Origin: Dictyophora rubrovolvata | Taxonomy: Eukaryota; Basidiomycota; Agaricomycetes; Phallales; Phallaceae | Reading direction: 5' to 3' | NCBI GenBank assembly: GCA_029959195.1 | Contig: CP114125.1 | Span: 1,612,001 to 1,676,000 of the forward strand | Length of the DNA: 64,000 bases | Part shown: in pieces, positions 5,271 to 63,372 of the stretch | How positions within the stretch are numbered: the stretch's first letter is position 1 | Layout of the letters: each line of letters starts with the position of its first letter | The notes under the pieces: model-generated | The model's database searches: none | Seen by the model: the letters and a program-made list of their open reading frames with translations, nothing else | What the model was told of the DNA's origin: nothing | Made by a program: the position numbers and the translations under genes

Positions 5271-6992
5271 TCATGAATCATCCCCAGTTCTAGCTAAAAA
5301 CGCGCCACTACTCGCCGTCGCCGAAGAATTCCGTCTCCCACTAAATCCAACACTCGGAAAACCATTACTTCCTCCTTCAAGTGTAGCAGTACTTAAACCG
5401 GGACTGGGCAGCCCTTTTGAAAGATCGGACGCAGGCGATCTGAATGGGCTCGGAAGAGGAGACCCCGTGAATTCACCATCGTCCTCCGGTACACCCTCAA
5501 ATGCCGGACTGTGTTGAGGAGGACGCAAGTGATTGTGATTGTGATTGTGGTTGTGGTTGTGGTGATCCGAAGGTTGAACTATTCTGAGATCTGAGGTAGG
5601 TAAAGAATCAGGCGATCGAGGTTGTGAGGAAGACATTGTGGTAGTGGTAGTCGAAGAAGAAGTGCCAGATGTTGAACCGGCTGTTGTGCTTCGACGAGAT
5701 CTGCGCGGTTTTCTCGAGCTCGAGCTCAGACTCGGACTCGTTTGTTGGTCGGTGCCATCCAGTCCGGATGTAGTACTCCTTCTAGTCCTTTTAGATGGCT
5801 TGTCAATACTGGCAGAAACCAGATCTGAAGGAGAAAGAGGATGTTGACGCGGGTCATGTAGTAAAGACGGTGATCGCAGGCCATGAAGCTGGGACTGGGA
5901 CTCTCGAATTCGAGCACTTTCCATTCCTTCAGATCTTGACATAGACACTGAAGTATGCGATCTACTTCCAGATCCCGAATCTGATCGGGAAGCTACCGAG
6001 TTACGACGGATATACGCCACAGCATCAAAATCGGCGTTGTTATCCGCCTCATCCTCCTCCACATCATTACGCGATGATACCCGCACGAATGCATCTCCTG
6101 TCGTTCGAGAAGGACTGTTAAGTGTGACGTTGTTTAAATGATAAGGTTGTTTTGCTTCTTGAAATGCTCCGAATTCTTCTTGCAAAGGTAACCCAGAAGA
6201 AGATGAAGGCGAAGACGACGACAGAGTTCCGGTTGCCACGCTGTTCAAAACTGCATGGGAAGAAGAAGCATCATCTCCATCCCCACCACTTCCTTGAAAT
6301 CCTTGAAATTCGACACTTTGTTCGGCGTTAAGTAACGCAGAAGACAACTTTCGTTGTCTTCTTTTTTCTTTGCGTGCAGCTTTTCTGGCAGTGGCGGCGG
6401 CTGAAGCTTCCTCGTCTTGAGTTTGTGAAGGCTGCGCGACCTCTACCCGACTTTGACTCTGACTCTGACTCGGACGCCTGGTACGACCAGCAGACAACCG
6501 AGCAATAGTATCATCCTCAACCGGCATAGGATCAGAATCCAGAGTTGAAGAAGAAAGCCTTGATATCCTTCTCCGTTCACTATCATCATTATCTCCATCA
6601 TCATCATCCCCATCATCTCCGTCGTCCGAATACCCCTCAGCAGTCTGACCAACAGCAGGCTTCCCAAACAAATCATATCCAAACAACCGAATAGTGCCTT
6701 TACTATTATGTTTCCTCCTCCTTCTCCGCTGTTTCTGCCTCTTGAAATCTTTCCGCCTAGGATTCCCAACATTTGAGTGTAGAGATACAGCATCAGTATC
6801 CATTTCGCCGTCGCTATGCTCTGCATTCCGGAGCAGGCTTTCGAGTTCATCTCGATCGCGGTTCGCATTCCCTTGATTATTATTGTTGTTGTTGTTGTCA
6901 TTATCTTCGGTGCTTTGTTGGTATTGAGGAAAACATGCGAAGCAAGTTGCAAATGCTGCGCGAGCGGTGTCGCCCCAGCTGAACGTTGCCAT
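5271..6992 (-). CDS. Long low-complexity serine-rich protein of unknown function
   Basis: Uninterrupted frame of 573 codons on the minus strand. I take the ATG at 6992 because the codon opening the frame at 7019 is TTG. The N-terminus has a short conserved-looking block with two cysteines (FATCFACFPQY), which might be lipidated, followed by an asparagine run and acidic serine-rich sequence. A strongly basic block (KRQKQRRRRRK) looks like a nuclear localisation signal and is followed by GTIRLFGYDLFGKP. The remainder is serine/proline/arginine-rich with a His-Asn repeat near residue 490 encoded by a hexanucleotide repeat at about 5527-5565. No catalytic domain is visible. The ordered islands suggest a conserved protein with long disordered linkers. 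A small 3' exon cannot be excluded. Confidence 0.6.
   Translation of the reverse strand: MATFSWGDTARAAFATCFACFPQYQQSTEDNDNNNNNNNQGNANRDRDELESLLRNAEHSDGEMDTDAVSLHSNVGNPRRKDFKRQKQRRRRRKHNSKGTIRLFGYDLFGKPAVGQTAEGYSDDGDDGDDDDGDNDDSERRRISRLSSSTLDSDPMPVEDDTIARLSAGRTRRPSQSQSQSRVEVAQPSQTQDEEASAAATARKAARKEKRRQRKLSSALLNAEQSVEFQGFQGSGGDGDDASSSHAVLNSVATGTLSSSSPSSSSGLPLQEEFGAFQEAKQPYHLNNVTLNSPSRTTGDAFVRVSSRNDVEEDEADNNADFDAVAYIRRNSVASRSDSGSGSRSHTSVSMSRSEGMESARIRESQSQLHGLRSPSLLHDPRQHPLSPSDLVSASIDKPSKRTRRSTTSGLDGTDQQTSPSLSSSSRKPRRSRRSTTAGSTSGTSSSTTTTTMSSSQPRSPDSLPTSDLRIVQPSDHHNHNHNHNHNHLRPPQHSPAFEGVPEDDGEFTGSPLPSPFRSPASDLSKGLPSPGLSTATLEGGSNGFPSVGFSGRRNSSATASSGAFLARTGDDS
5527..5565 (-). repeat. Hexanucleotide repeat inside the coding region
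   Basis: A degenerate GATTGT / GGTTGT repeat on the plus strand is translated on the minus strand as alternating histidine and asparagine. The period of six keeps frame, so copy-number change would alter length without a frameshift. Confidence 0.7.
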
Positions 6993-8093
6993 GAGTGAGG
7001 GGGTATACGGAAAGTTCAAAGGAAAGAGATTGAGAAACGATATCGGACACGTACAAAGTTGAGAGGAGAGGAGCGAGTGAGGAACACGTGATTCTCACGC
7101 GGCGCAATCCTGTGCCGATGTTGCCTGACCCCAGCCTCATATGACGATCAAAGTAATTGAAAAACAGAGGCGGTTCTGAATATCATTTGGTCATTTCAAA
7201 AGGTTTGCGCCGACTTTAACAAACTTCCATTATGGAGCCGGAGCATTTAAAAAAAAGGAGGATATGATATAATAGTAAATACGCATGCATGAAATCAGGC
7301 CAATCAGGATCAGTCAGGTTAGAGGCCTAGGTAGACAATCTTCCTGTATACTAATAGTCGTTTAGAGGGATCCACCGACCTGCCATACTCACCTCCATGA
7401 GGATCTGTTCTTCGCATTCCGTATCGGTGTCATGGCGGTTACAGTCAGTTGTGTTTTGTTCCGTTGCGATTAAATCTCCACAGAACTTCAGCGACGATGA
7501 CTGCTTGCCACTTGGAGCATCGCGGATGCCGGTGTGGGTAGAGTTTAGTGTGTCAAATTCAGTGAAGGATGTACATACATTGGAGGAAGTGCGGTGATCG
7601 TTCGGCAGTGAATATGGAAGGCGAGTTGGCAACCTTTTTTACACGATAATAATTGTCATTTAGATTCATATATCTTATGACCATTATTTATCGAAATCTT
7701 GCACATTTATCGGTGGAGTTAAAAGGCTCATGAGTTACAAAACTCAGTGGAGGGGTGTCTGCTTTATACCAGATAGCATCACTGCCAATGGAGCGTGCTT
7801 CATATTCTACAAACAACGCACAAATACCACCTCTCGACAGACAAGAGAAGAGTCTTTATTAATCTGTATACATTCCGTGTATGAAATTATTGACATAATT
7901 TTCCTCGTATGAAGTGATCTCACCCACATAAAATCCGCTTCAGAATATATATAAAAACGTCATCAGCCCCTGGTACCACTGCTTTCAAGGTTCCACTGCA
8001 ACCACATGCACGACCGCCAAAACACTTAATCGTTCAACCGACAAGCACAAGAAGACAGACACTCGACTTACTTACGGATCTAAATAGCCAAAG
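6993..8093. other. Intergenic; promoter region and weak TATA
   Basis: Overlapping open frames on both strands at about 7351-7632 have no recognisable domain and are probably chance. TATATAAAAA at 7947-7956 could drive the very short frame beginning at 8094. Confidence 0.35.
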
Positions 8094-9258: not shown

Positions 9259-11710
9259 ATGGATGATGAGGCTGCTGATATTGAGCTGGTAAGTCGAGTT
9301 TTCATTGTTATTAGTTATCTTATTTATTGTGGAATCAGCTCGAACAGCATCTAAATAAGACGAAGCTTATATCGCAACGTATGACAGGTATCTATCAATC
9401 CCATTCAACGAATCGTCTTTCAACATAAACTAAAAGACAAAATACAAAGGTATTCTGACAAAATTCGACACTCGGCTCGTCAAACTTGAAAAAACTATCC
9501 TTCCTCTTCATAAATCAACGCTTTCTCTGACGAAAATATCTGACAGTATGGTTTCATATCGCCATGATCATGAAACCTGCTAATTAACTGTCTAGATATC
9601 GATAGGACTTTGAGTAGCATTAAACAGGTAGTCACGAATCAAGAAAATGCAACGTCTGAAGAAGCACTTATTATGCGTGGGTGCGTCGTTTCTGCCGGCT
9701 GACAGAGGGTGTCTTATCCCGATCTCACCATCCTCTATATGTAGACCTCAAGTTACAAAACTCTCTTTGTATACAGATGCTTTGGAAAGACTCAATGCCA
9801 ATTTTGCTTTTGCCCCGGACAGAATGACGCCCGATGCTGTACGTTGACCGATTAAGCGTTGCCATTCACAACTAGCTCACTCTCCCAACCACCCAGACCC
9901 GTCTGGTAGAAACCGGTGCCAAAAGGCTGACGCAGCTTTATACCAAACTCGTTGCTGAAGGATCTTCCGGTTCGCCGCCTGAATCATCGCCTCTCGTTTC
10001 TCCCCGTCCTGCCATCCATGCTTTATCAAACACGTTGACACCTCTGGTAGCTGCGTTGCGGTCATTGCCGATACCTGCTACTCATCCATCTCACCCGGCT
10101 AGTCCTGCTATATGGGATACTCTTAAAGAGGCGCAAAAGGGTTATGCTGAGATGCGTGGTCAATGGTGTAGAAGGTGTATTGACTCGCAGTCTCATCGTG
10201 TGATGGATCGGATCGAGACGATGGAAGCTATTGAGGGTGGAAAAGAATTTGGTCGCTGGGTTGATAATTTCCTAAACTATATAGAGGTGTGTATGATATA
10301 CTTATCTTATACGGATGTATTCTCAGCTGATGTTCTAGACGGAATACGTATTGTTGCAATCCATGACGCCGATACCTAGTTTGAATAGCCAAAGCTTTGA
10401 AGACTTTCTACAGCCGTTGATTACGCTTTTCCAATCCGACATGGCAACATTTACCACCCTAATCAAGCGTTCTCTCCCTAAATATACATTTCTGGCGTTG
10501 TCCGCGTACTCATCGCTTATGGCCTTACAAAATCGCTGGGCAGATCTCATCACCAAGCCTACTGCACGACGAGAAAATGAGCTTAAAGAAGGTTTACACA
10601 GCTTGCGTGCGATATGTTTACGGAGTTTTCCCGAGTTTTTGGCAGATATTAAGATGTCTTCTATTAAACCTACCGATGCACAGTTTCTTGGAACGGGTGT
10701 TGCTGAGCTGGTTGTTAAAGTGGGTTAAGCTTCGTCATCCCGCCTGATGATGATTGATTGATTGATTGATTGATTCACACTTTCTTTTTTTTCTTTCTCT
10801 CTCTGCAAAGGCTGTCAACTTTTTGGAACAGGTGCCTTTAGTTGAAGAAGCTGTTATCGCTTCTTTGTCAACTTTAGGAGATGGTAATTGGAGGATGGGC
10901 GAAGGCGTTGGTAAAGGCGGTAAAATTGGCAATACCGCAATTGAGAATGAAAAGGCATTAGTGGGGCACTTTATTCGTAGGTCCTTTATTAATAGAGGAT
11001 TGATCTCTAACACCATTGATGATGCTCTAGACGACGTGATTACGACACTAGTCAACGCCTTGAATATGCTAGCGAAAGGACGTCGACCTCAAATGGGCTC
11101 GATCTATTTCCTCAACAATGTCTCATTCATCCGGTCCCGACTACTCGACAGTCCCGAAACGTCTATTGATTCACTCATAGCACCAGAAACGCGGAATATT
11201 ATCAATTCAAATTTCCGAGTTGCCAAAGCGACCTATTTCGACTCCAACTTCTCACCGCTGATACAATCGCTGGGAGATGACAAAGAGCCTTCGGGCGGGC
11301 TCCTGGGAAGCGGACGGAGCGCTCAGATGAAGGAGAAATGGAGTCGGTTCTTTAGTGCTTTTGAGGAGCTTGCTGAGAGACATCGTGTTGCGAGGGTTAT
11401 GCCTGATGATCCTCAAGGACGGGTTATGCTTCAAGACGAGGCTGTTCGGTTGGTGTTACCGCTTCTGCTGAGGTTCACTGAGAAGCATAAAGATAAGGAG
11501 TTTAGTAAAAGTCGGTCGTTTCTGTTGTTTTTAGGCGCTGCGTTTGTGTTGTTGACAGTTAAACTTTTTTTTTCATTGAACAGATCCTCAGAAATGTAGG
11601 TGTTGAAATTTGCTTGTCGGGTGGTTTTGAACAATTACTGATATCGTTCTACAGATATCAAAGCGACACCGACGGAGGTGGAGCAACAGATCAAGGATTT
11701 TTATCGATGA
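9259..11710 (+). CDS. exo70: Exocyst complex subunit Exo70
   Basis: Ten exons keep phase: 9259-9288, 9339-9387, 9450-9545, 9596-9680, 9745-9838, 9897-10286, 10339-10719, 10811-11510, 11584-11595 and 11655-11710, giving 630 residues, normal for fungal Exo70. The N-terminal ~100 residues form the coiled coil; the long helical Exo70 C-terminal region follows, including GSIYFLNNVSFIRSRL and the terminal motif NPQKYIKATPTEVEQQIKDF typical of the family. Exo70 binds phosphoinositides and Rho GTPases and tethers secretory vesicles at the plasma membrane. Exon 9 is only 12 nt and encodes part of the conserved PQKY motif. The intron at 10720-10810 holds an (ATTG)n microsatellite. No damage is seen. 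Confidence 0.93.
10751..10776 (+). repeat. (ATTG)n microsatellite in an exo70 intron
   Basis: About six tandem copies of ATTG sit in the intron between exons 7 and 8, upstream of a T/C-rich tract and the acceptor. Confidence 0.8.
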
Positions 11711-30200: not shown

Positions 30201-31721
30201 GGACAAATAGACTCGAATCAGCAGGGTTGATATAACATTGAAATTAGAGTTCTCACCAAGTACGAATGGATAAGGTGATCCGCAAGCCTTCAATCACGGA
30301 TGCATCTGGATAATTGCTTGGCCTGCCTCAAGACTATATCAAGGTCAGTGAAACCTAAAAGAGAATAGATGCCGTTCAAATGCTGGAGAAAGGTTGGTAC
30401 GAGTGTGGTCAGGGTTACACATTCTTTGTGAGCCTACATTGTACACGAGACAATATTATAATTCACCTTCCTTGAATAGAATGAAGATACGCACGTGAAT
30501 GGAAAAATCTGCACATACACATGATCGGGAAACCGAGACAACTTATATCTGCCCAAGTGAGATACCATTAGTAGGCTTCGAAGGTTTCAGTATGACGATA
30601 GACCCAGCTAATAGTAGGGCCTCCGAGAGGAGAATAAGGTTCAAACCTTGGCCTCTTGGGTAGCGTTCAGCGCTTCAGCTTAGAGCTATGATCTATCGTA
30701 TGTAAAAGTATTTGAGTTACGTTTACATGGCGTCTGTAAACAGCTGATTGCAAATTTACTACGGTACCGGTAGTACTAATGTGGACATGCTAATTGAGTT
30801 TTTGCCGATCTTCACGAAACACATCATTGACAGCCACCTCAAATCATTGTTCAGTCAAGCTCACTGCACTTGGGGAAGATGAGAACTTACATTGTCCTTG
30901 AAATGGTAGAATTATGCAGTCTTCCGATTGCTGGAAATGGGTATTATAGAACCGGCCGAAGTTGGATAGATCCGCAATTTGCACATAACGTCAGCTAATC
31001 AAATTTTGTTACCGCTTGAATTCTTGCATCTTCTGCTTGACTGCGCTATCAATGGTTACACGTTTTGTCGGCTTCGAATTCGTAACCAGCATAAAAATTA
31101 GACTTGACATGAGTGATTTTCGGCCAGTGGCTCCGTATTGCAAACGGTCCTGTGATCTGTCGTAGTTAGGCGCATTTGAGGGATTAGGTCAAAGAATGAC
31201 GAAGAATTGCTTGAATTGTATAGTTTAGATGGCATTGCCTGCGATCCGGAGCGCAACGCCTTCGAGAAAGCCGTTACCAGATGAGGCAACCGTAAACGTT
31301 TTAAGTCCTGGAGACGAAACCCTTGATAAAGAGCTGTCAGCAGGGCGACAGTAATTAGTAAGTAACGAATTTGAATAACAGAATATTTACATACATCGTA
31401 TGTCTATCAGAGGAAGAAAAATCTATTGAATTACTGGTAAAAAGCGATCCTTGGCGGTCCGACGTAACATCAGAGGTTCGTACAGCATCATCATGCTTGA
31501 TCGCTCCCTTTGATTTATGAAAAATTGAGCTCAGAAACGGAACGAAACGGGATTAGATTCATCGTTAATGCATAGCGTTGCGTTGATATATAGTCAATCA
31601 CGAGTCTGAGCACTGTCGACGTGGCTTGCGTTTACGTCATATTATTGAACTCTTCGGCTAAGAGATAGCGATGACCGTGTGAGCAGAATCGGCGGTCTCC
31701 TTCAAGTTGCTTGCAGCCATT
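30201..31721. other. Intergenic, no supported gene
   Basis: Only short frames (the largest at 31,098-31,289, minus) without domains. No tRNA or repeat with a second copy in the window was recognised. Confidence 0.35.
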
Positions 31722-33626
31722 ATGCAACGACAGGGAGGGCGTCGTTCATCGCCCCCTCCTTCCCGGACTAACCCTTCGGGCAGAGATCATCGTAGAGAGG
31801 CTAGCTCTTCTGCAGCCGCTCATGATACCAATACTCTTCTGGATACCAAAGATCCATTCACCGCGATGAGCTTGCTGCGCAAGCTACTCAACAACACCGC
31901 CCGTACTGGGTACAGAATTTCATCGGAGGAACACAAACTATCTCTCCGGTTATTGTCGATCATTGAGCCTTTCATCAGCCTTCATCCTGTAGACGGGAGC
32001 CAAATTGGCACGTTAACTAGGCAGCCTAATGAGATCCTTGATATGATCGCGTTTCACATCGATAATCGAAAGGACTTGCTATCATTGGCACTGACATGTC
32101 AACGACTCCGCGATATTGTCGTACCCCGACATTTGGAATACCGCTTCATTCAGTGCAAGCCTAGTTCGGAAAAGCTTTGGAAGCATCTTATTGCACACCC
32201 CCTACTAGCTTGCAATGTCCGACGTCTTCATATAATAGACGAAATGTCCAAGGAAATTGAAGTTGTCCCTTCTCGCGTCGCTGAAGAGACTTTTGTCGTT
32301 GAAGCGCGCAAGCAGGCGTTGGACATCCACATCATACACCAATGTCTAATCATCGAGGCACTGACTCGTATGAGGACTCTGACGACGTTCTCCTGGTCAT
32401 GCAACAGTTCCTTGATCACGTTTGATGATGTTTCACCCACTTTATTCACTTGTGAAATGCTCAAGGAGGTGGACATCACCGACAATCACATCTTTAGTGC
32501 CCGCTCAATTAACGGATTTGAGCAGAATGAAGGTACCTCACTAGCAAGGAACCAACTCGTCTCAAGATCACAGGTAAGTCCGAAGGAGCGTCGCGCAGAA
32601 ATTCTCACGCATGCTTGGGTTTTTTTAGATACTGGATGTTCCGGATTTGACGTCGGTTGCTGTCAGAACTGCCAGAGGTACCTCGCGTCTAAGCAAGCAC
32701 CCGTCTCTTGAAAATATTCAATCTCTCCTCATTTCTCATTGCCCAAACCTGACAACATTAAGGATTGGTTACGATCACCGCCGGCCTTTCATCCCTCGAG
32801 CCGATGACTTCTTCGCTTCAGGTCGCTGGCCAAATTTGCAAAACCTTAGTCTTCAAAACCTTTGGTGCACCACCCAAAACGGGTTTGAAGCCGCTACGAA
32901 TTTCTTAGTCGCACATTCGTCATTGGAGTATCTCCAGTTCGAGCTAGGTCGAGTTCAACTGGATCTCCCTCCGAATTCACTGCCCAAACTGCGTGAGCTG
33001 GCATGTTCCCGTGACGTAGCGGTGTCCATTTTGTCATGTCCTCGCGATGATGAAAGCATTCGCCCTCTTGAATGTGTCAAAGGCGTCAAATTGAACGGCG
33101 GTAGGAAGGAAGCCTTGCTGGAGAACATTGCTAAATATCCGACTTTGAGGAAGATTGAGCTCGCTTGTTATAATGATATTGAGGATATCAAGAAACTGGC
33201 AGAAGCTTCGCCGAAAATAATATGGTTAGATGTGGGGAAAAAGTCCTCCAGTTTTGTTAAGCCCAACAGTGGAGCACCTGCGAGCGTGGTATGATCTTTT
33301 TTACGCGTTTGTTTCTTCTCAGGGGTGTTGCTTTTAATCCCTGATTTTAGAACGAATGGGCTCTTATTCTGTCATCGCTTCCGGAATTGACGACGTTGCA
33401 TGGCGTCCACTTTTTTTATGAATTTTCCGACGCTTTGTCTCATTCGGATCGCAGTCGCATAAAGAAGAACGACGAAGTGGCGTCGATGCTTGCTTGGAAA
33501 TGTCCCAAACTGAAACGAGTGGACTATTCCGATGCTTTCGGCAAGGTTGTCATCCTTGGAAAGGAAGGAGACAGGTCTCGCTGGGAAGTTAAACGGTTGA
33601 AACAGAAGGATATCCTGTGTCATTAA
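31722..33626 (+). CDS. F-box / leucine-rich repeat protein
   Basis: Three exons in phase: 31,722-32,573, 32,629-33,288 and 33,351-33,626, giving 595 residues. I start at ATG 31,722; the codon opening the frame upstream is TTG. Residues about 1-45 are a basic, serine-rich tail. The F-box reads LTRQPNEILDMIAFHIDNRK followed by LLSLALTCQRLRDIVVPRHL. Leucine-rich segments follow (SLLISHCPNLTTLRIGY, NLQNLSLQNLW, LEYLQFELGRVQLDLP, LAWKCPKLKRVDYSDAF). It is expected to act as a substrate adaptor of SCF ubiquitin ligase, substrate unknown. It is unrelated in close sequence to the F-box genes at 20.5 and 58 kb. The gene looks intact. Confidence 0.8.
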
Positions 33627-45444: not shown

Positions 45445-48400
45445 ATGAAACTTAAAGAAATTTACAGGACATCCATATTTGCGTGGTCGCCGTCTGGAAA
45501 CGTACCATTACTCGCTACCGGCACAGTTGCTGGTGCACTAGACGAGTCTTTCAGCAATGACAGTCGACTTGAAATCTGGAGTCCCAATTTTTTGGACAGC
45601 CATGAGTACTCTCTTGGTGGAGATGCAGGTCAACCTGGTCCAAAAGCATCCATTACAACAACTTCACGGTATAGCCTACGTTTCTAATGTCGTCACTCAA
45701 CATTTTAACATTATTTTCTTAGATTCAACCGGATAGTCTGGGGATGCGCAGACAGCGCAAGACCATTTGGCATTCTAGCTGCGGGGATGGAGAACGGAGA
45801 GCTAGGTCTTTGGGATGCTGAAACAATTTTGTCGGGAGCGGTGTATGACATCCAGATGCTTCAATTACCAGAGAGTATCTACTTATCCTCAATTTAGTGC
45901 CTCCGAATGCTCGATTTTCAAAAACTCGACTCACACCGGTGCCGTCCGGGGTTTGGATTTCAATCCTATCCAAACTAACCTCTTAGCATCCGGAGGAACA
46001 AATGGCGAGGTACGTTCTTGAATTTGACCATATCTCCATATGTATCTGATCGCGGCTAGACCTACATTTGGGACTTGAAAGATCCCAGCAAACCCTATTC
46101 TCCTGGTGCACGAAGTACCAAACTCGACGAAACGACGGCTAACGCTTGGAACAACCATGTTCCGCATGTTTTGGCGACTTCAAGTTCAACAGGTTATACA
46201 GTGGTTTGGGATTTGCGAGCGAAGCGCGAAATGCTCGCTCTTGCTTACTCCGGCGGTGCGGCCACCGCAGGGAATGCCATGAACATTAACGCCATGGCGA
46301 TGGGCAATAGACGTGGCATGAGCGATGTCTGCTGGCATCCCGATAGCGTAAGTTTTCTTCAAAAGAAGATCCTTATTGTTTCGGCTAAGAAGTCGTGCAG
46401 CCCACCAAACTTGTGACCTCGTCCGAAGACGATGTCTCTCCAATTGTCATGTGCTGGGATCTCCGAAATTCACGTGCTCCAGAAAAGGCTAGTTATCCCG
46501 TCTTTTGTTCAAACTTAAAAGGATATCTTATTCGCTTTTAGATCTTAACCGGACATGAGAAAGGCGTTCTGTCTCTGTCGTGGTGCAAACAAGACTCTGA
46601 CTTACTCTTATCGTGCGGCAAAGACAACCGCGTTCTCTGCTGGAACCCTCAAACAGGAGACAACATCGGTGAAATTCCTCCAGCGAACAACTGGGCTTTC
46701 CAAGTCGACTGGTGTCCACGCAATCCAGATTTATTCGCTACCGCTTTCTTCGACGGCACTATTGGCATTCACTCAATACAAACTCTTAACGAAGATACTG
46801 CATCTGCTACACCATTCCAAGACGATGGAGTTTCCTTATTTGACAATCCAAACTTTGGAAAAGTGTCGCAAGCAAGCCTTGCCTTGACACAATCTCCCAA
46901 GTGGCTCCGTTGTCCAGTCTCCTCATCTTTTGGATATGGAGGTCAGCTCGTGACTGTTGGGAACCTTCCTAGTAGCCAGGGACGACATCAAAGCAGTTCT
47001 GTCCGCATCCACACCGTCATCACCGAGCAGGCCATCATCCAAAGAGCCCAAAAATTCCAAAGTGCTATTGACGAGAAGAAACTTGACACGTTTGCTCAAG
47101 AAAAGACAACGCAAGCTAAAGGAAACTCGGAGGATTACGAAAGTTGGAAAGCTTTACTCAGCTTATTCCGAACAAACTCACGTGAGGAGCTGATCACGCT
47201 CTTCGGGTTTTCGAAGGAAAATGTCGCATCTCAAGTTGCTGAGGCGGTTGCTAAAGTTAAAGCTTCTGCAGCAGCAGCAGCATCCAAGGCCGAAGAGGAT
47301 GACATGGGCACTCCGCATGAGCCTGTTGTTACTTTCGCTGAGCCGGAGACGGTTCATCTGGAAGGCACAGAGAACTCCGAAGCACCTCATAGCGGTGGCG
47401 TCCAAGCTTCTGAAGCTACTCCGTCTGAATTTAGTACGAGCGCGACTTCCGACGGAACAAAAGCAGCTGATATTGAGTCGACTACCACCGAACATAGCTT
47501 GTTCGCAGATGATCTCATTGCTGGAACACCGCAGGCTGAAGCAGCTGCCGACTTCTTCAGTACTATGGGTCCTATACCTAGTGCTCTTCCCTCCCATCTC
47601 TTAGTTCCGCATACAAATTATACCCAGGACTCTTCTGTTGCTGCTACAATCGGTTCAGGTCCTTCATCCGTTGCCTCTGAAACATTGAAGAACAATAATT
47701 TTTCGATTTATCCCGCGGAAACGTCCGAACTAGACCAACTTTTGACAAAAGCTCTGGTATTGGGAGATTTTGAATCTGCAGTAACGTTGTGTATATCGTC
47801 GAATCGTTTTGCCGATGCCATACTTTTGGCTGTAAAAGGAGGCGAGGAATTATTACAGAAAACCCAGAAGGCTTATTTTGAACGACAAACTGCGTCGCTT
47901 CCCTACCTTCGACTATTCCAATCGATCGTTTCAGATGATTTGGAGGATATCGTTCAAAACGCTGACCTGCAAGAGTGGAGGGAGATCTATGTCGTCTTGT
48001 GTACATTTGCCAAGAAGGAGGAGTTTTCGATGCTAATGGAACAACTCGGTCACCGTTTGGAGTTCCAAGGCAATCTTGTCAAAGTTTCGGAGATAATTGA
48101 CGATCCTGATGTTAAAGCCAAGGAATTCAAGAGACATGCGACGCTTTGCTATTTGGCTGCTCAAAAGCTTGAGAAAGTCGTCAATATCTGGGTTGAAGAG
48201 ATGTGCCAAGAGGAAGAGGATCTCCAGCATCAGGAGGCCGTGCTCTCAGCGAAGGCGTCGCGCTACACTGTTCATGCGCAAGCTCTTCAGACGTTCATTG
48301 AGAAAGTTACAGTTTTCCGTGCCGCGACAGAATATATCGATACAGATCTTAATCAATCCTCCAGTGATGCTGCAGCTAAAACGTACAAACTAGCTTCTCT

Positions 48401-50373
48401 TTACGATCGTTACATCGAATATGCCGATCTTCTCGCTTCTCAGGGTCTTGTTAACGAAGCTGTCAAGTATTTGGAATATACTCCGGTCGATTATACAGGT
48501 GTGCCTGGTATGGAGTTCGATGTGGCTAGAAAGAGATTACTGAAAGCTGCTGGGAAATACGAAGCTCCGACGCCAAAGGTTGCTACTGTTCCTGCCCCAT
48601 CCGTTGCTGCTACTTCTACCTATGGTCAAGGTCAAACCTACGGCGCGCCGTACGGAACAACTTATGCACCCCAACAACAACAGCAACAGCAACAGCAGCC
48701 TACTCAACCACCTGTATCGACTGCAAGTTACGGATCATACAACCCCCAAGTTGCTGCGCGTTCTTCCGCGGTTCCGGCATCTAATCCCTATGTTGGCCAA
48801 AACGCACCGACGTATCAATCCCAACCATATGGTACCTATGGTGGTAGTGTAAGCTCTAATGCCTATGTACCCTCTACTGCAACATACACGCAACCCGCAT
48901 CCATGGCTCAAACAGCTCAGACGGCTCCGCTAGCACCACCAGCTGTGAGCGGACCGGGCTCAACAACACTTCCACCGCCACCTCAACGTATCAAACGAGA
49001 AAACGGTGGCTGGAATGATCCACCCGGGATTCACAATGACCGACGCAGCACGCCAAGTCTATCTGCGAATAAAGTAGGTCCTTTGACGGCGCCGTTCCCC
49101 AATTCGGCTCCATCTGCTGGTCCAACAACGCCTATCAGTCCTTATATGCAGACTACCCAGGCTCAGCCGTTGCCACCGCCTCCCAGAGGGGGAGCATCGA
49201 CGCCTCAGCGTGGTATGCCACCACCACCACCTCGTGGGCCGAGTGTTCCTCCAGGTCAAGGTCAGGTTCCACCACCAGTTGGAGTTGGATTGCCCGGACA
49301 CCCACATCCTCCGCAAGGGCAGTTTATCCCGCCAGGAAGACCAGGCTCGGGAGGACCGGGTCAATACGCTCCTCCTCATGCTCATGCTCGTGCTTTGTCT
49401 CCTCTACAAGGAGGTCCACCTGCTAGACCGATGTCGGGTGCTCCACAATTTGCTGGTCGACCGCCTGCTCCAGCCTCAGCTGCAGTGGGAGCAGCCGGAA
49501 TGGGAATGGGAATGGGCCGTGGAACGCCACCTCCGCCTCAAATGCAGAATCTTGCTTATGCACCTCCCGCTCGAGCAACGCCGCCTCCTTCTCAGCAGTT
49601 ACATGCACAGGATGGACGACCAATTGGTCCTGGAGCTCCCGGAATACCTGGAATGCAGCATCACCAACCTCCACCCTCGCACCTTGCACCTTCTCAGGCT
49701 GGACCTTATGTGCCTCCACCGGGTACTATTTCTCGACCTGGTCCGCCGGGAATGCAAGGCCCGCCTTCTGGACTTTTGGGACATCCAGCTCCTCCGCCTG
49801 CTGCACCGCCTAAACCTGCCCCCCCTCGAGGACCGAAGTATCGTGCGTGTCTTTCCCTTTTCGTATGCGTAGTATACTTACGAACATCTCTTTTCTTTCT
49901 TTCCGATAGCTCCTGGTGATCGTAGTCATATTCCAGTTGGTTTTAGACCCATCTTCGAATTCCTGTCAGCAGAGATGACTCGTATGAAGCAAATGACTCC
50001 CGTACGTAGTGGCTATCTTCAACTCTCGGACCTTTGCTCGTGCAAAACTAATCCCATCGCTTTTCAGCCTGCACAAAAACGATTGGCGGACGATACTGAA
50101 CGTAGAGTGAACACCTTATTCGATGCTCTCAACTGTGAAACATTATCACAGTCTGTAGTAGAGCATCTGAAAACACTTGTGAATGGTGCGTAGAATCAGC
50201 TGAAAACAATTCCAGGTCTGGAACTTCGATGGCTGAGAACAATTATAGCAATGATATCACGAAATAGAGATGCGGCGATGGCAATTCATGTTGAATTGCT
50301 CACTCAAGGTTCTGTCACTGACGATATTGGTATGTGGATGGCTGGGGTGAAGCAACTGATAATTCGGCTATAA
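45445..50373 (+). CDS. sec31: COPII coat outer-layer protein SEC31
   Basis: Nine exons: 45,445-45,668, 45,723-45,842, 45,898-46,009, 46,060-46,347, 46,401-46,487, 46,542-49,842, 49,910-50,001, 50,068-50,185 and 50,249-50,373, giving 1488 residues. Residues 1-380 form the WD40 propeller, with GLDFNPIQTNLLASGGTNGE, TYIWDLKDP and ILTGHEKGVLSLSWCKQDSD. The alpha-solenoid (ACE1) follows, with LLTKALVLGDFESAVTLCIS. A long proline/glutamine-rich linker (about 970-1385, with an eight-glutamine run) carries the usual SEC23-binding segments, and the helical tail ends DDIGMWMAGVKQLI. SEC31 with SEC13 forms the COPII cage on ER exit sites. Exon 5 ends in an AAG|GC donor. The gene is intact. Confidence 0.95.
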
Positions 50374-58010: not shown

Positions 58011-59262
58011 TCATGTATTGATACATCCTACCACTCCTCCTGTTGAGATGTTGGGTAGAAGTAACGATCGCCAAGAAGATAAAAGGGACTGTGATTGTTG
58101 AACTTGAGAGTGTAAAAGGTGAATGTCTTCCAAATCTCTGAGCTGAAAAAAGAGTGAGATAAATTGTAAAGTATACAAATGCCCATGAACAAATACACAC
58201 AGGCTCCTGTCACCAACGGGAGCATAGACAGGATATGTCCATGGCCCAGGCAGGAGAAAGTGGACGACCTCACGAAGCCGGGGATGAGCTTTCAAAGCCG
58301 CTTCGAAACTATCCGAACGTTGTGAGGTCCAGTATATTCGACTGTAAATCCTTCTTAATGAAGGATTTTTGACAGCGTTGAGAACAACGTCGTTCTCGGC
58401 AATGTAGTATGCTCTTGGGACGTAAACGGTTTGAAGGTTTGGTACAAGAGCAAGAGCTCTTGAAATAGCTTTGGCACGTTTATGACGTTCGCGGTATCTA
58501 TATGACGAATCAATGTCATCGAGCCACAAAATTTCATCGTAAGGATGATCGTATAAAACCTAATTATGTAGAACTGCTTTGAGAAAGAAGAACGAAGATA
58601 TATTTTAAAACACACAGACCAAATTCGACCAGATAGATGTCATACACTCAATGTGGACATCGATGACATATTGGACTCCCTGGTTTCCCCAAACTAACCA
58701 ATCGCGAAGGACGAAGTGTTGAGGATTGACTAGTGACTAGCCAGAGACCGCTACAGGGACTGCCCACATTCCGCGAAGATATATCATCCAGTGTGATACA
58801 TAAAGTCGTAAGTCGAGGCACTTTTGAAAGAATTGTATAGATAGCCCGTCCTGGGCCTCCCTCGATGCGCAGTTTCTTGATATAGTGGCCGATGCGCTGT
58901 CGTCGCTTGATTGCCAAAGCATCCGCCTCCGACCTGGAGGTAATAATGACAGTTTCATGAGATATTGGCATAATAATGCGTCTCCAACGGCGACAAACCA
59001 AAGAATAGGACTTCACCTCAGCGCGATGTGCAAGAAGGTGAGTAGGGTCGCGATGGGAAAACATGTCATAGTCGACATAAAGCCGGTATTCCAAAATGAT
59101 ATGGATAAGTTCATCTGGAAGCAGATCGAATGACGTCAACTTGGTTTTTCGTTTTTGGACAATCTTGTCTGCCATTTCATAATTTCGAGGACGGTGTCGG
59201 TGTCTGAGTTCCGGTTCCAGGGCAAGGGGGTTTACCTCCGCACCAATCCAACTGTTCGGCAT
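58011..59262 (-). pseudogene. F-box / leucine-rich gene, damaged copy B
   Basis: Same orientation and layout as copy A: MADKIVQ, F-box FDLLPDELIHIILEYRL, SYSLVCRRWRRIIMP, then leucine-rich segments; the second exon region (58,011-58,560) keeps QLRDLEDIHLLHS, longer than in copy A. Around 58,728-58,742 a seven-base tandem duplication (TGACTAG twice) shifts the frame relative to copy A, after which the residues of the conserved C-terminal part of exon 2 are lost until the intron. The upstream leader exon is one base shorter than in copy A. Probably a pseudogene; an unusual splice could rescue it. Confidence 0.6.
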
Positions 59263-60420
59263 TCGGCATTCGGCACCTGCGTACGTCGCACGTCGTCGTA
59301 TATGTTGACCATAGTTTAGTGTCTGGAATATAGTACAGAGGCAAGATAGATGAGTTAAGAACAGATAACTTGAAGCTTTTTATGACCGTGACGGCCGAAT
59401 GGGAAACCGATAAAAAGGATCCGAGCGTGCTGTCCGAGGCAAGCATTTCTACCACTTAAAAGCATATCGCTGACATTCTTGATTTTGGAAATCCTTTACT
59501 TCGATGGTCTCACGGTGGCGTGTGAGGCAGGTTTTCTTCTCTTATACACGCTTTCATCAGTCAAAGAATCGTCCTACTGCGATGCGGGTAGTTAGGTACA
59601 TGAAAGATTTTGCCAATTGACGGTCGCGGGTAAACGAATCGATGACTGAGAGGTCGTTACGTTGCCATCAGCGTGCCCGAGGCAAGAAGATTGGACACAG
59701 CATCGGGTTTATCAATGGAGATCAAAGCCAATGTTCGTTTTGGCTTGAATGGAGGATGAAAAAATTTGTCGTGTTATTCTTAACTCCGACTGAAATTCAC
59801 TGCAATCATACGGTGTCATGGGTTTTAGGTTCGGCGCAAGCCATGAATGCATGAATTTCTGGTGCGACGAGTGGTTTCGGACGATGACTACGAAGACAAT
59901 GGGATGTCTCCTCTCCGAATGCTCGAAAACGATATCAGTGACCGACTGAATTTGAATTCGGAACAGCGACTTGGTACGAACATGGGTTTCATTTTTTAAT
60001 GTATCCTCAAGCTCATATTGAACTTTCGTATATGACGGCGTCACCATTACAAATTTTTAACTCAATCTAAACCTGTCGCACCTCTCTCGAAATCAATGTA
60101 CGCCGTACAATGTATCAGCGTGCCAGCCTGTTCAAGATTTGTTCAAGATAACAGCACAAGGTGGGGAAGTGCTTAGACAATAGAAATCGTACTATCATGG
60201 CCCACGTCGTCCTTCAGAAGACTAGGTTCGGTATTGTGAAAGTCGGAGGCAGGAAGGGATATCTATATCTGATGTGACAGTCTCATGTAACGTACAGGAT
60301 GACAAAGAAGGGATGGATCAGTTGGGCCAATTACGTCATCAATTGCTAAACCACGCCCAAAACCTCATCGTGCGCCGCGCCCACTGTGGTGATGGGTGGA
60401 TGTTGTGGGCTCCACAACTA
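59263..60420. other. Intergenic, no supported gene
   Basis: Frames at 59,642-59,854 and 59,712-60,047 overlap on opposite strands and have no domain. The region leads into the repeat cluster beginning near 60,421. Confidence 0.4.
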
Positions 60421-61555: not shown

Positions 61556-63372
61556 ATGGTTAATGTGGAACCAATGTATGTATGTTCTCCCAGAAATTTG
61601 GTCCAAATTGTTAACTTGCCGATATTAAGCTTCGGTCCTATGCTCATTGGTGTCTTTCTTAACACTATATTATATGGCGTAAGCGATTTATCTGAAGCCG
61701 CTTGCGTCCCATACTCAACGATTTGCTCAGGTCCTCCTTGTTCAAGTAAACAACGTCATATTTTTAATTGAAAAACTCGTACCAATTTCCTATCTTAGGC
61801 AATTATATATTATCAAAACTATAAACTGTAAGTGAGCCTACAAGCTTATTAGATCTCACAAGTCTGACAACAGACTGTTATAACCCTCAGAGATGTAAAA
61901 TGGACTCGATATCTAGTGCGTCTCTGTGGCGATAAATACGATTGTTCATTTCACCTTTTTTTTTCTTCCTTGTAGGTCTTGTATTTGTTCATTTGCGAGA
62001 CTATTAACACACTTTGTGACATCGGGATGATGTACGAGCCGCTAGTTGCTCGCTTCGGTATTATGACCTATTCTTTACGTCGGGATGTGTAGTAATTTTG
62101 TCATCAGGAACCGAAAGGGCGGTGACAAGGCTGCCAATATGTACGTCAATTTATGCCCTGGTGTTCGAGCTAATTAAGATATGTGTTATATAGTATTCAC
62201 AGCAGGTGAGAGGAGTTCTCTTATCGTTGAACCTGGTTCTCATGATATCGCTTAAGATCCCATGTTAACAGTATTGAACATTCATTCCTCACGTCTAGTT
62301 CGCATTGACAAGTTCGCATAGGTTCTCATATCCACACCAGTTCAACTGTTCATCTGTTGGCGAATAAAGGTGTTGTTCAAGCTGATAAATACGAGATTTC
62401 AAGGCACGTCATATCTTATCGCTTTCCTTTCCCTCTGTTCATTTGGTAAGTGCATTTTTTACTCCGAGATGATGGATAACTAACGATTTCATTAAACCAC
62501 GACAGTCGGAGGGATATCCGTTTCTGTGTATAATGGTCACATACCGAAGTTTACTCAACTCGGTGACGCTCGCTGGGCTGTCATTCTTTGGCTTGTTCCC
62601 TCAGCCGTAGTGGATATTTCCATAACTATATGTCTGGTATACTCATACGTAAGTTGTCCGATCTCCTCCGAGAGGCTCTTCATCCTTTTCATGCTGATTC
62701 TCATCATAGCGAAAATGCCGAACAGGGTTTGGGAGAACAGACAACGTATTGAATAGAAATATCCGACGTAACCTATGCTTTTTGTTCGTCAATGCCGCTG
62801 ATATTCACAACTGAATGAATTAGTTGCCATCCACACAGGTGCTGTTACTTCTATGTTTGCAATCCTAGACTATCTAGTCTTTCAAACTGTACCCGTAAGT
62901 GGTAATATAGTCTCGTGGTGAGAAATTGTATATAACCTGTTGATTCTAAAGCAAACAACGGCGTAAGTTGCCTATAGCTTTCATTCGCGGATCAACTCAA
63001 ACCTTGCGCATAGTAATTTTGCATTCGACTTCGCCCTCGGGAAGCTGTATTCTAATTCCTTGTTGTCCACCTTCAACGCCAGAGCATATTCTACTCGTAA
63101 TGACATGGAAGATCAAACGAATTACAATATCTTGTTCGGGCCGCAAGACAATACGCAATCAATTGTGAGGGTCTCTCTCGGCTTTTTCTTTTCTTCTGCC
63201 TTACTTTACTTCGGAAATTGAGTCTTTAAATCAGCCAGTTTCGTTCCCACCTGAAGCCTCAGGCTCTTCAAGCGCTGATCTTGAATCACAGGTGTCAACA
63301 AATGATTTACACCCCAAAGTGTTGACTAGGATAGAACAGAATGAAGATATTACGGAACCTACATCTGTCTAG
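61556..63372 (+). CDS. DUF6534 seven-helix membrane protein, microexon-rich
   Basis: Sixteen exons keep phase: 61556-61575, 61630-61678, 61731-61745, 61799-61827, 61891-61915, 61976-62057, 62108-62140, 62194-62205, 62257-62270, 62322-62445, 62506-62648, 62710-62767, 62824-62894, 62952-62962, 63014-63164 and 63235-63372; 324 residues. Seven hydrophobic segments are seen, starting with FGPMLIGVFLNTILYGVLLV, RYLVLYLFICETINTLCDIG and DPMLTVLISTPVQLFICWRI. The C-terminal block LAIHTGAVTSMFAILDYLVF with FALGKLYSNSLLSTFNAR is the DUF6534 signature. Such proteins are expanded in mushrooms and have no known function; a role in the plasma membrane is inference. Four exons are 11-15 nt. All introns are 50-70 nt. 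A serine-rich tail ends the protein. Confidence 0.85.

Follow-up and report, generated by a model that had tools for sequence, protein, structure and literature searches.

At positions 61556 to 63372 on the plus strand of the window, by which we mean the whole 64-kb stretch of DNA that was analysed, a sequence-only reading had placed a gene with exons as short as 11 nt. This raises two questions, namely whether exons of this size truly belong to the gene, and if so, why there should be so many of them within a single coding sequence.

Gene model and family assignment

Rebuilding the model from the sequence reproduced the 16 exons that the earlier reading had proposed, as a gene model with an open frame: 975 nt of coding sequence for a protein of 324 aa without an internal stop, interrupted by 15 introns of 50-70 nt each, every one of which (15/15) carries GT-AG borders. 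Exon 1 (61556..61575) contributes 20 nt of coding sequence from the ATG and is followed by exon 2 (61630..61678, 49 nt) and by the first microexon, exon 3 (61731..61745), which has 15 nt, is in phase 0-0 and encodes VLLVQ. Exons 4 (61799..61827, 29 nt), 5 (61891..61915, 25 nt), 6 (61976..62057, 82 nt) and 7 (62108..62140, 33 nt) then lead up to two adjacent microexons: exon 8 (62194..62205), with 12 nt in phase 1-1, encodes LFTA with split codons, and exon 9 (62257..62270), with 14 nt and running from phase 1 to 0, encodes DPMLT. Further downstream lie exons 10 (62322..62445, 124 nt), 11 (62506..62648, 143 nt), 12 (62710..62767, 58 nt) and 13 (62824..62894, 71 nt), and the last microexon, exon 14 (62952..62962), has 11 nt, runs from phase 0 to 2 and encodes QTT and a split A. 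The model is completed by exon 15 (63014..63164, 151 nt) and exon 16 (63235..63372), which encodes a variable tail in 138 nt including the TAG stop. The sizes of 15, 12, 14 and 11 nt, and the adjacency of the 12- and 14-nt exons, are as had been described, again at the level of a gene model. Branch-point-like YTRAY motifs occur in 9/15 introns, a modest excess over shuffled introns (mean 4.9, with 9 reached in 17/500 shuffles). The splice-aware protein aligner used throughout was purpose-written, and returned the same junctions when given the window protein, which tests the aligner and not the model. Very probably, the gene is divided into 16 exons, among them four of 11-15 nt.

The assignment of the encoded protein to the DUF6534 family, also made in the earlier reading, holds. 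Against the Pfam model (PF20152) the protein scores 66.8 bits, where the cut-off is 28.2, with residues 167-253 aligned to profile positions 1-79 of 80, and removing exon 14 lowers this score to 36.3 bits. Of the four microexons, only this 11-nt exon is contained in the Pfam domain, the other three being located outside it. There, the N-terminal half of the window protein can be aligned with proteins of the paralogous clades B, C and D discussed below. Four scanned proteins from clade B and the window gene's own clade A, as well as one from clade C, are likewise over the cut-off. Hydropathy analysis (Kyte-Doolittle, 19-residue window) yields six segments of at least 1.2 in the window protein. 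Exon 3 lies within the first of these (residues 13-31), exons 8 and 9 immediately precede the third, and exon 14 follows the sixth.

That this family is large in mushrooms, as had been supposed, is backed for Agaricomycetes by PMC12842992, where 3893 DUF6534 sequences are reported in the largest cluster of unclassified seven-helix proteins. Many DUF6534 proteins are argued there, by machine learning, to constitute a new GPCR class of Agaricomycotina, and the 767 sequences that received a consensus GPCR prediction come without exception from Agaricomycotina. Judged by this family, the host would be an Agaricomycete. It should be noted, however, that the class treated in that study is a putative one with a predicted receptor role, and that its members are seven-helix proteins, whereas the window protein has six predicted segments. 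A genome-wide six-frame search with the DUF6534 Pfam model (28.2 Mb, 11 contigs, best candidates scored) did not include the window gene among the 9 matches listed at the threshold of E<=0.001. A likeness to an acetyltransferase, seen in two weak matches to solved structures (E 0.017 and 0.018), was judged to be due to chance, and a scan of viral contigs with the first 279 aa of the window protein returned 10 pattern matches and no relative.

Elsewhere in the window, ten of the 15 listed open frames were scanned with Pfam, and none of them bears on the DUF6534 finding. An Exo70_C match over the cut-off is present at 10766-11596 (+), weak WD40 and Sec16-type matches fall in one 1125-aa frame at 46542-49916 (+), and two F-box-like matches below the cut-off are located at 31683-32708 (+) and 58651-59379 (-). 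For a 606-aa open frame at 5271-7091 (-), the scan gave no match at E<=0.01.

Paralogues and tests of the short exons

Five further genes of clade A were modelled over exons 1-15 in the same genome, at C11:576k (C11b), at C5:2509k (C5a) and, as a group of three (C8a to C8c), at C8:87-98k. The six genes have identical positions and phases for all 14 introns that precede exon 15, and the microexon lengths of 15, 12, 14 and 11 nt are constant in 6/6. The same constancy (6/6) is found for the lengths of exons 1, 2, 4, 6, 7, 11, 12 and 13. Exon 5 has 25 nt in 5/6 genes and 19 nt in C11b, and exon 10 has 124 nt in three genes and 109 nt in the other three. The last intron varies among the paralogues, and at their C-terminal ends the models of C8a and C8b reach no further than into exon 15. 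The three C8 genes make up a local DUF6534 cluster of about 10.5 kb, in which two genes lie on the plus strand and one on the minus strand.

With splice sites trimmed, introns 1-14 of the window gene share an identity of 0.85 with those of C11b and of 0.74 with those of C5a, where shuffled introns give 0.70 and 0.69, respectively. Against the three C8 genes, the identity of 0.69-0.70 is that of shuffled sequence (0.69-0.71). Compared with these genes, then, all junctions are kept while the intron sequence is without visible similarity. All homologue comparisons presented here are between paralogues of one genome.

The tree and the counts exclude two degraded clade-A copies, at C5:2565k and C11:511k, and three distant C6 genes that align poorly (two at L046 and one at L047; scores 92-118); the modelled set excludes loci L052, L053, L054 and L060. 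In the degraded copy at C5:2565k, exons of 15, 12, 14 and 11 nt are still recognisable, and the one at C11:511k consists of the second half only, with an in-frame stop near its end. A short tail fragment is present at C5:2569k.

The window protein served as query for the clade-A models and for the initial model in each of the other clades, which makes them partly circular. This is answered by the divergence of the introns, by an enumeration that is free of similarity, and by the gap-free genes of other clades. In the enumeration, all GT-AG paths between flanking exons were listed for introns of 42-80 nt and exons of 3-40 nt. The pair of 12 and 14 nt proved to be the sole frame-keeping configuration present in 6/6 clade-A genes, and at exon 14 the same is true of a single exon of 11 nt. 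At the site of exon 3, both 15 nt and 9 nt occur in 6/6 genes, and at exon 5 no configuration is found in all six, with the 25 nt occurring in five and 19 nt in one.

Furthermore, the window-gene stretch between anchors was subjected to dinucleotide shuffling at three sites, with C5a and C8c as queries and 300 shuffles per run. The real splice-alignment score was reached by 0/300 shuffles in each of the six runs. The 11-nt exon is the weakest in this respect (z 3.3 and 2.2), its best shuffles scoring 238.8 against 242.9, and 184.1 against 184.9. When the microexon residues of the query were masked as X, the 15- and 11-nt exons were still chosen in 6/6 loci, whereas the pair of 12 and 14 nt was recovered in only 3/6: exon 7 was extended in the window gene and C8c, and C11b received one exon of 26 nt. 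Support for this pair thus comes both from its residues and from its splice signals.

The genes of clades B, C and D (n=7) provide a comparison at the level of the protein. The sites of exon 3, exons 8/9 and exon 14 align without gaps in 7/7 of these genes, and no intron lies inside the first two sites in any of the seven; in one gene an intron follows the exon 3 site at a distance of 4 nt, and in one gene the exon 8/9 site at a distance of 7 nt. For exon 14, 3/7 genes have no intron near the site, and the 4/7 others, all of clade B, carry their own introns almost at the same place. The sequence-only reading had named homologues that are uninterrupted here, yet different in sequence, as what would speak against it, and the genes that are uninterrupted and gap-free at these sites instead favour the model. 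On a profile made from these seven genes, the full window model scores 149.8 bits, compared with 131.8 when exon 3 is skipped, 138.3 for exon 8, 57.8 for exon 9, 56.1 for exons 8 and 9 together, and 122.1 for exon 14. The microexons improve the match to relatives, but it does not hold that each of them is needed for the reading frame, which requires only the 14- and 11-nt exons. Nor can FTAD be maintained as a family consensus, as the three C8 paralogues have LYVD, FPFN and LYVD instead. Exons 3, 8, 9 and 14 are all at most 15 nt long, flanked by GT-AG introns and conserved in size and phase across six of six clade-A paralogues of one genome, as is characteristic of conserved coding microexons.

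What does the reading frame itself tell us? Without exon 9 the protein stops at 138 aa, without exons 8 and 9 at 134 aa, and without exon 14 at 225 aa. Retention of a single intron shortens the protein in 14/15 cases, and for introns 2-14 the protein then ends at 38-233 aa. Retaining intron 1 leaves the frame open and lengthens the protein to 342 aa, with a score of 147.1 bits on the profile of clades B, C and D, and with intron 15 retained, a protein of 297 aa scores 150.6 bits, no lower than the full model. For these two introns the reading frame thus offers no proof, and the case for them is made by the paralogues and the splice signals.

Skipping exon 3 or exon 8 keeps the frame, giving 319 or 320 aa, and with lengths that are constant in 6/6 genes these two could be regulated cassette exons that alter the first membrane segment and the stretch before the third. 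In fungi, a regulated microexon is described for Trichoderma Xlr2 (PMC11121469), and PMC4986451 cites codon-sized microexons of Tuber that are alternatively spliced. However, simple constraint on the coding sequence would also keep the lengths constant, skipping exon 3 should damage the hydrophobic segment that it helps to encode, and the profile scores drop by 18.0 bits without exon 3 and by 11.5 bits without exon 8. We therefore consider regulated skipping of these exons improbable.

Within clade A, changes in the coding sequence fall mainly on synonymous sites, and the microexons are no exception. For the window gene against its paralogues, pS/pN amounts to 0.17/0.07 for C11b, 0.76/0.19 for C5a and 0.84/0.33 for C8c, and for the 18 codons touched by microexons to 0.07/0.03, 0.80/0.10 and 0.90/0.33 in the same order; where pS is saturated, the corresponding dN/dS value was not used. 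This synonymous excess also bears on the notion that the window gene might be decaying as a pseudogene, its short exons being sequences that match by chance between dinucleotides resembling splice sites. Degraded relatives do occur in the same genome, as described above for C5 and C11, but the window gene has a full frame, shares its structure with all six genes of the clade, and was not equalled by any shuffle in the six runs. We regard decay as scarcely conceivable here.

Intron density and intron gain

With 15.4 introns per kb of coding sequence, the window gene is densely interrupted. When 15 introns are placed randomly in 975 nt, 2.93 internal exons of at most 15 nt are expected, and four are seen. 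Under such placement, the probability of four or more microexons is 0.33, and that of an adjacent pair is 0.39; for clade B, 1.58 microexons are expected and two are seen. The idea of a special enrichment in microexons was rejected on these grounds. Because intron density accounts for their number, the microexons need no further explanation, and the odd quantity is the density of introns and not the microexons. For comparison, Laccaria genes are reported to average 5.4 exons in 1.1 kb (PMC2897884).

Could these dense introns be copies of a mobile intron, that is, of an introner-like element? Their density, narrow range of sizes and largely clade-specific positions would agree with such an origin. 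However, the window introns are mutually no more alike than shuffled ones (mean 5.73 in both cases), the best pair, at 11.0, is reached in 8/60 shuffles, and the stretch of introns 7-9, searched in the genome, matches only itself and the C11 paralogue. In view of this lack of mutual similarity, and of further genome copies of introns 7-9, we rejected an introner origin, which we hold to be very improbable, although introners that are old and diverged may escape such comparisons.

Taken together, we are confident that the window holds a functional DUF6534 gene for a multi-pass membrane protein, cut by 15 short spliceosomal introns, in which the microexons would be constitutive and a by-product of dense introns. 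Fungi recognise short introns as units, a process known as intron definition. With the intron as the unit of recognition, a tiny exon would be no obstacle to splicing, and the four exons of 11-15 nt may simply be constitutive coding exons. As such, they would need no special function, arising wherever introns happen to be closely spaced.

When, then, were these introns gained? Clade B consists of five DUF6534 genes, at C9:1866k, C4:129k, C5:798k, C5:820k and C5:777k, the last of which (loci L051 and L058) is one gene and counted once. The tree splits clade A from clade B, with long branches flagged, and the structure of clade B is unlike that of A, with exons of 14, 41, 19, 38, 15, 36 and 25 nt. 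Of its ten intron positions, eight are present in 5/5 genes and the two that bound the 15-nt exon in 4/5, so that the microexons of 14, 19 and 25 nt occur in all five and the one of 15 nt in four (L050, L055, L056 and L057). In C4:129k (L055) and C5:798k (L056), the first intron after the 135-nt exon begins with GC in the model (gcacgt), in contrast to GT in the remaining three clade-B genes.

Clades A and B have one intron position in exact agreement (column 46, phase 0). A second differs by no more than 1 nt (column 232; phase 2 in A, phase 1 in B) and forms the 3' end of both the 11-nt exon of A and the 15-nt exon of B. The exon 14 spot carries a microexon in both clades, and the two may go back to a single old microexon whose ends have shifted, or may have arisen independently. 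Across the 13 modelled genes we count 42 distinct intron positions, or 39 when merged within 1 nt and 37 within 3 nt. As one ancestor of about 1 kb with all of these positions is not credible, most introns were probably gained within the clades, bearing in mind that this concerns one genome, and that the models of clades C and D derive from a single distant query. The largely different introns of clade B, along with its own microexons, would point the same way within this genome. The near-coincident positions in A and B, on the other hand, weaken the case for gain by clade. More tentatively, and in our view less likely than not, each DUF6534 lineage of mushroom-type fungi could have gained introns in a separate burst and frozen them afterwards as clade-specific microexon barcodes (15, 12+14 and 11 in A; 14, 19, 15 and 25 in B), and the microexon at the exon 14 spot, just before the last membrane segment, may even predate the split. 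If this were general, database entries for much of a putative receptor family would carry truncations or frameshifts, and counts of receptors taken from predicted proteins would be too low.

Relation to known systems

Microexons in basidiomycete genes are already on record, and the view of splicing is unchanged by the present case. Small exons encoding fewer than 10 residues are called frequent in basidiomycetes (PMC2897884), and a study of Ganoderma lists exons of very small size among its annotation problems (PMC11590231). In the literature searched, we found no description of conserved, clade-specific microexon sets in DUF6534. It is plausible that automated annotation mis-models such genes, and the exon sizes, phases and positions given here offer a template, supported by comparison, for re-annotating a large and poorly known family of membrane proteins. 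Moreover, with mostly different introns in two paralogous clades, the genome offers a modest natural setting in which to study the timing of intron gain and the reasons for later retention.

The microexon clusters of plants (PMC8831610) resemble the present ones in having a fixed size and phase within coding motifs, and in often being misannotated; two clusters are there described as adjacent in one gene family. They were found with RNA-seq across species, whereas the window gene represents one genome and is described from its sequence only. In fungi, the one-nucleotide exon of Fusarium CYP621A (PMC12940212) is likewise a tiny exon in a conserved coding region that is hard for annotation pipelines. 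It belongs to an ascomycete P450, is much shorter, and had its splicing confirmed by reads from a sequence archive. The P450 genes of Phanerochaete chrysosporium (PMC1184071) likewise form a basidiomycete multigene family, carry exons for 2-10 aa with a shortest one of 6 bp, and have frequent introns of 45-55 bp, similar to the short introns of the window gene. Whereas those P450 microexons are described as not confined to particular P450 families, the DUF6534 genes carry a fixed set for each clade.
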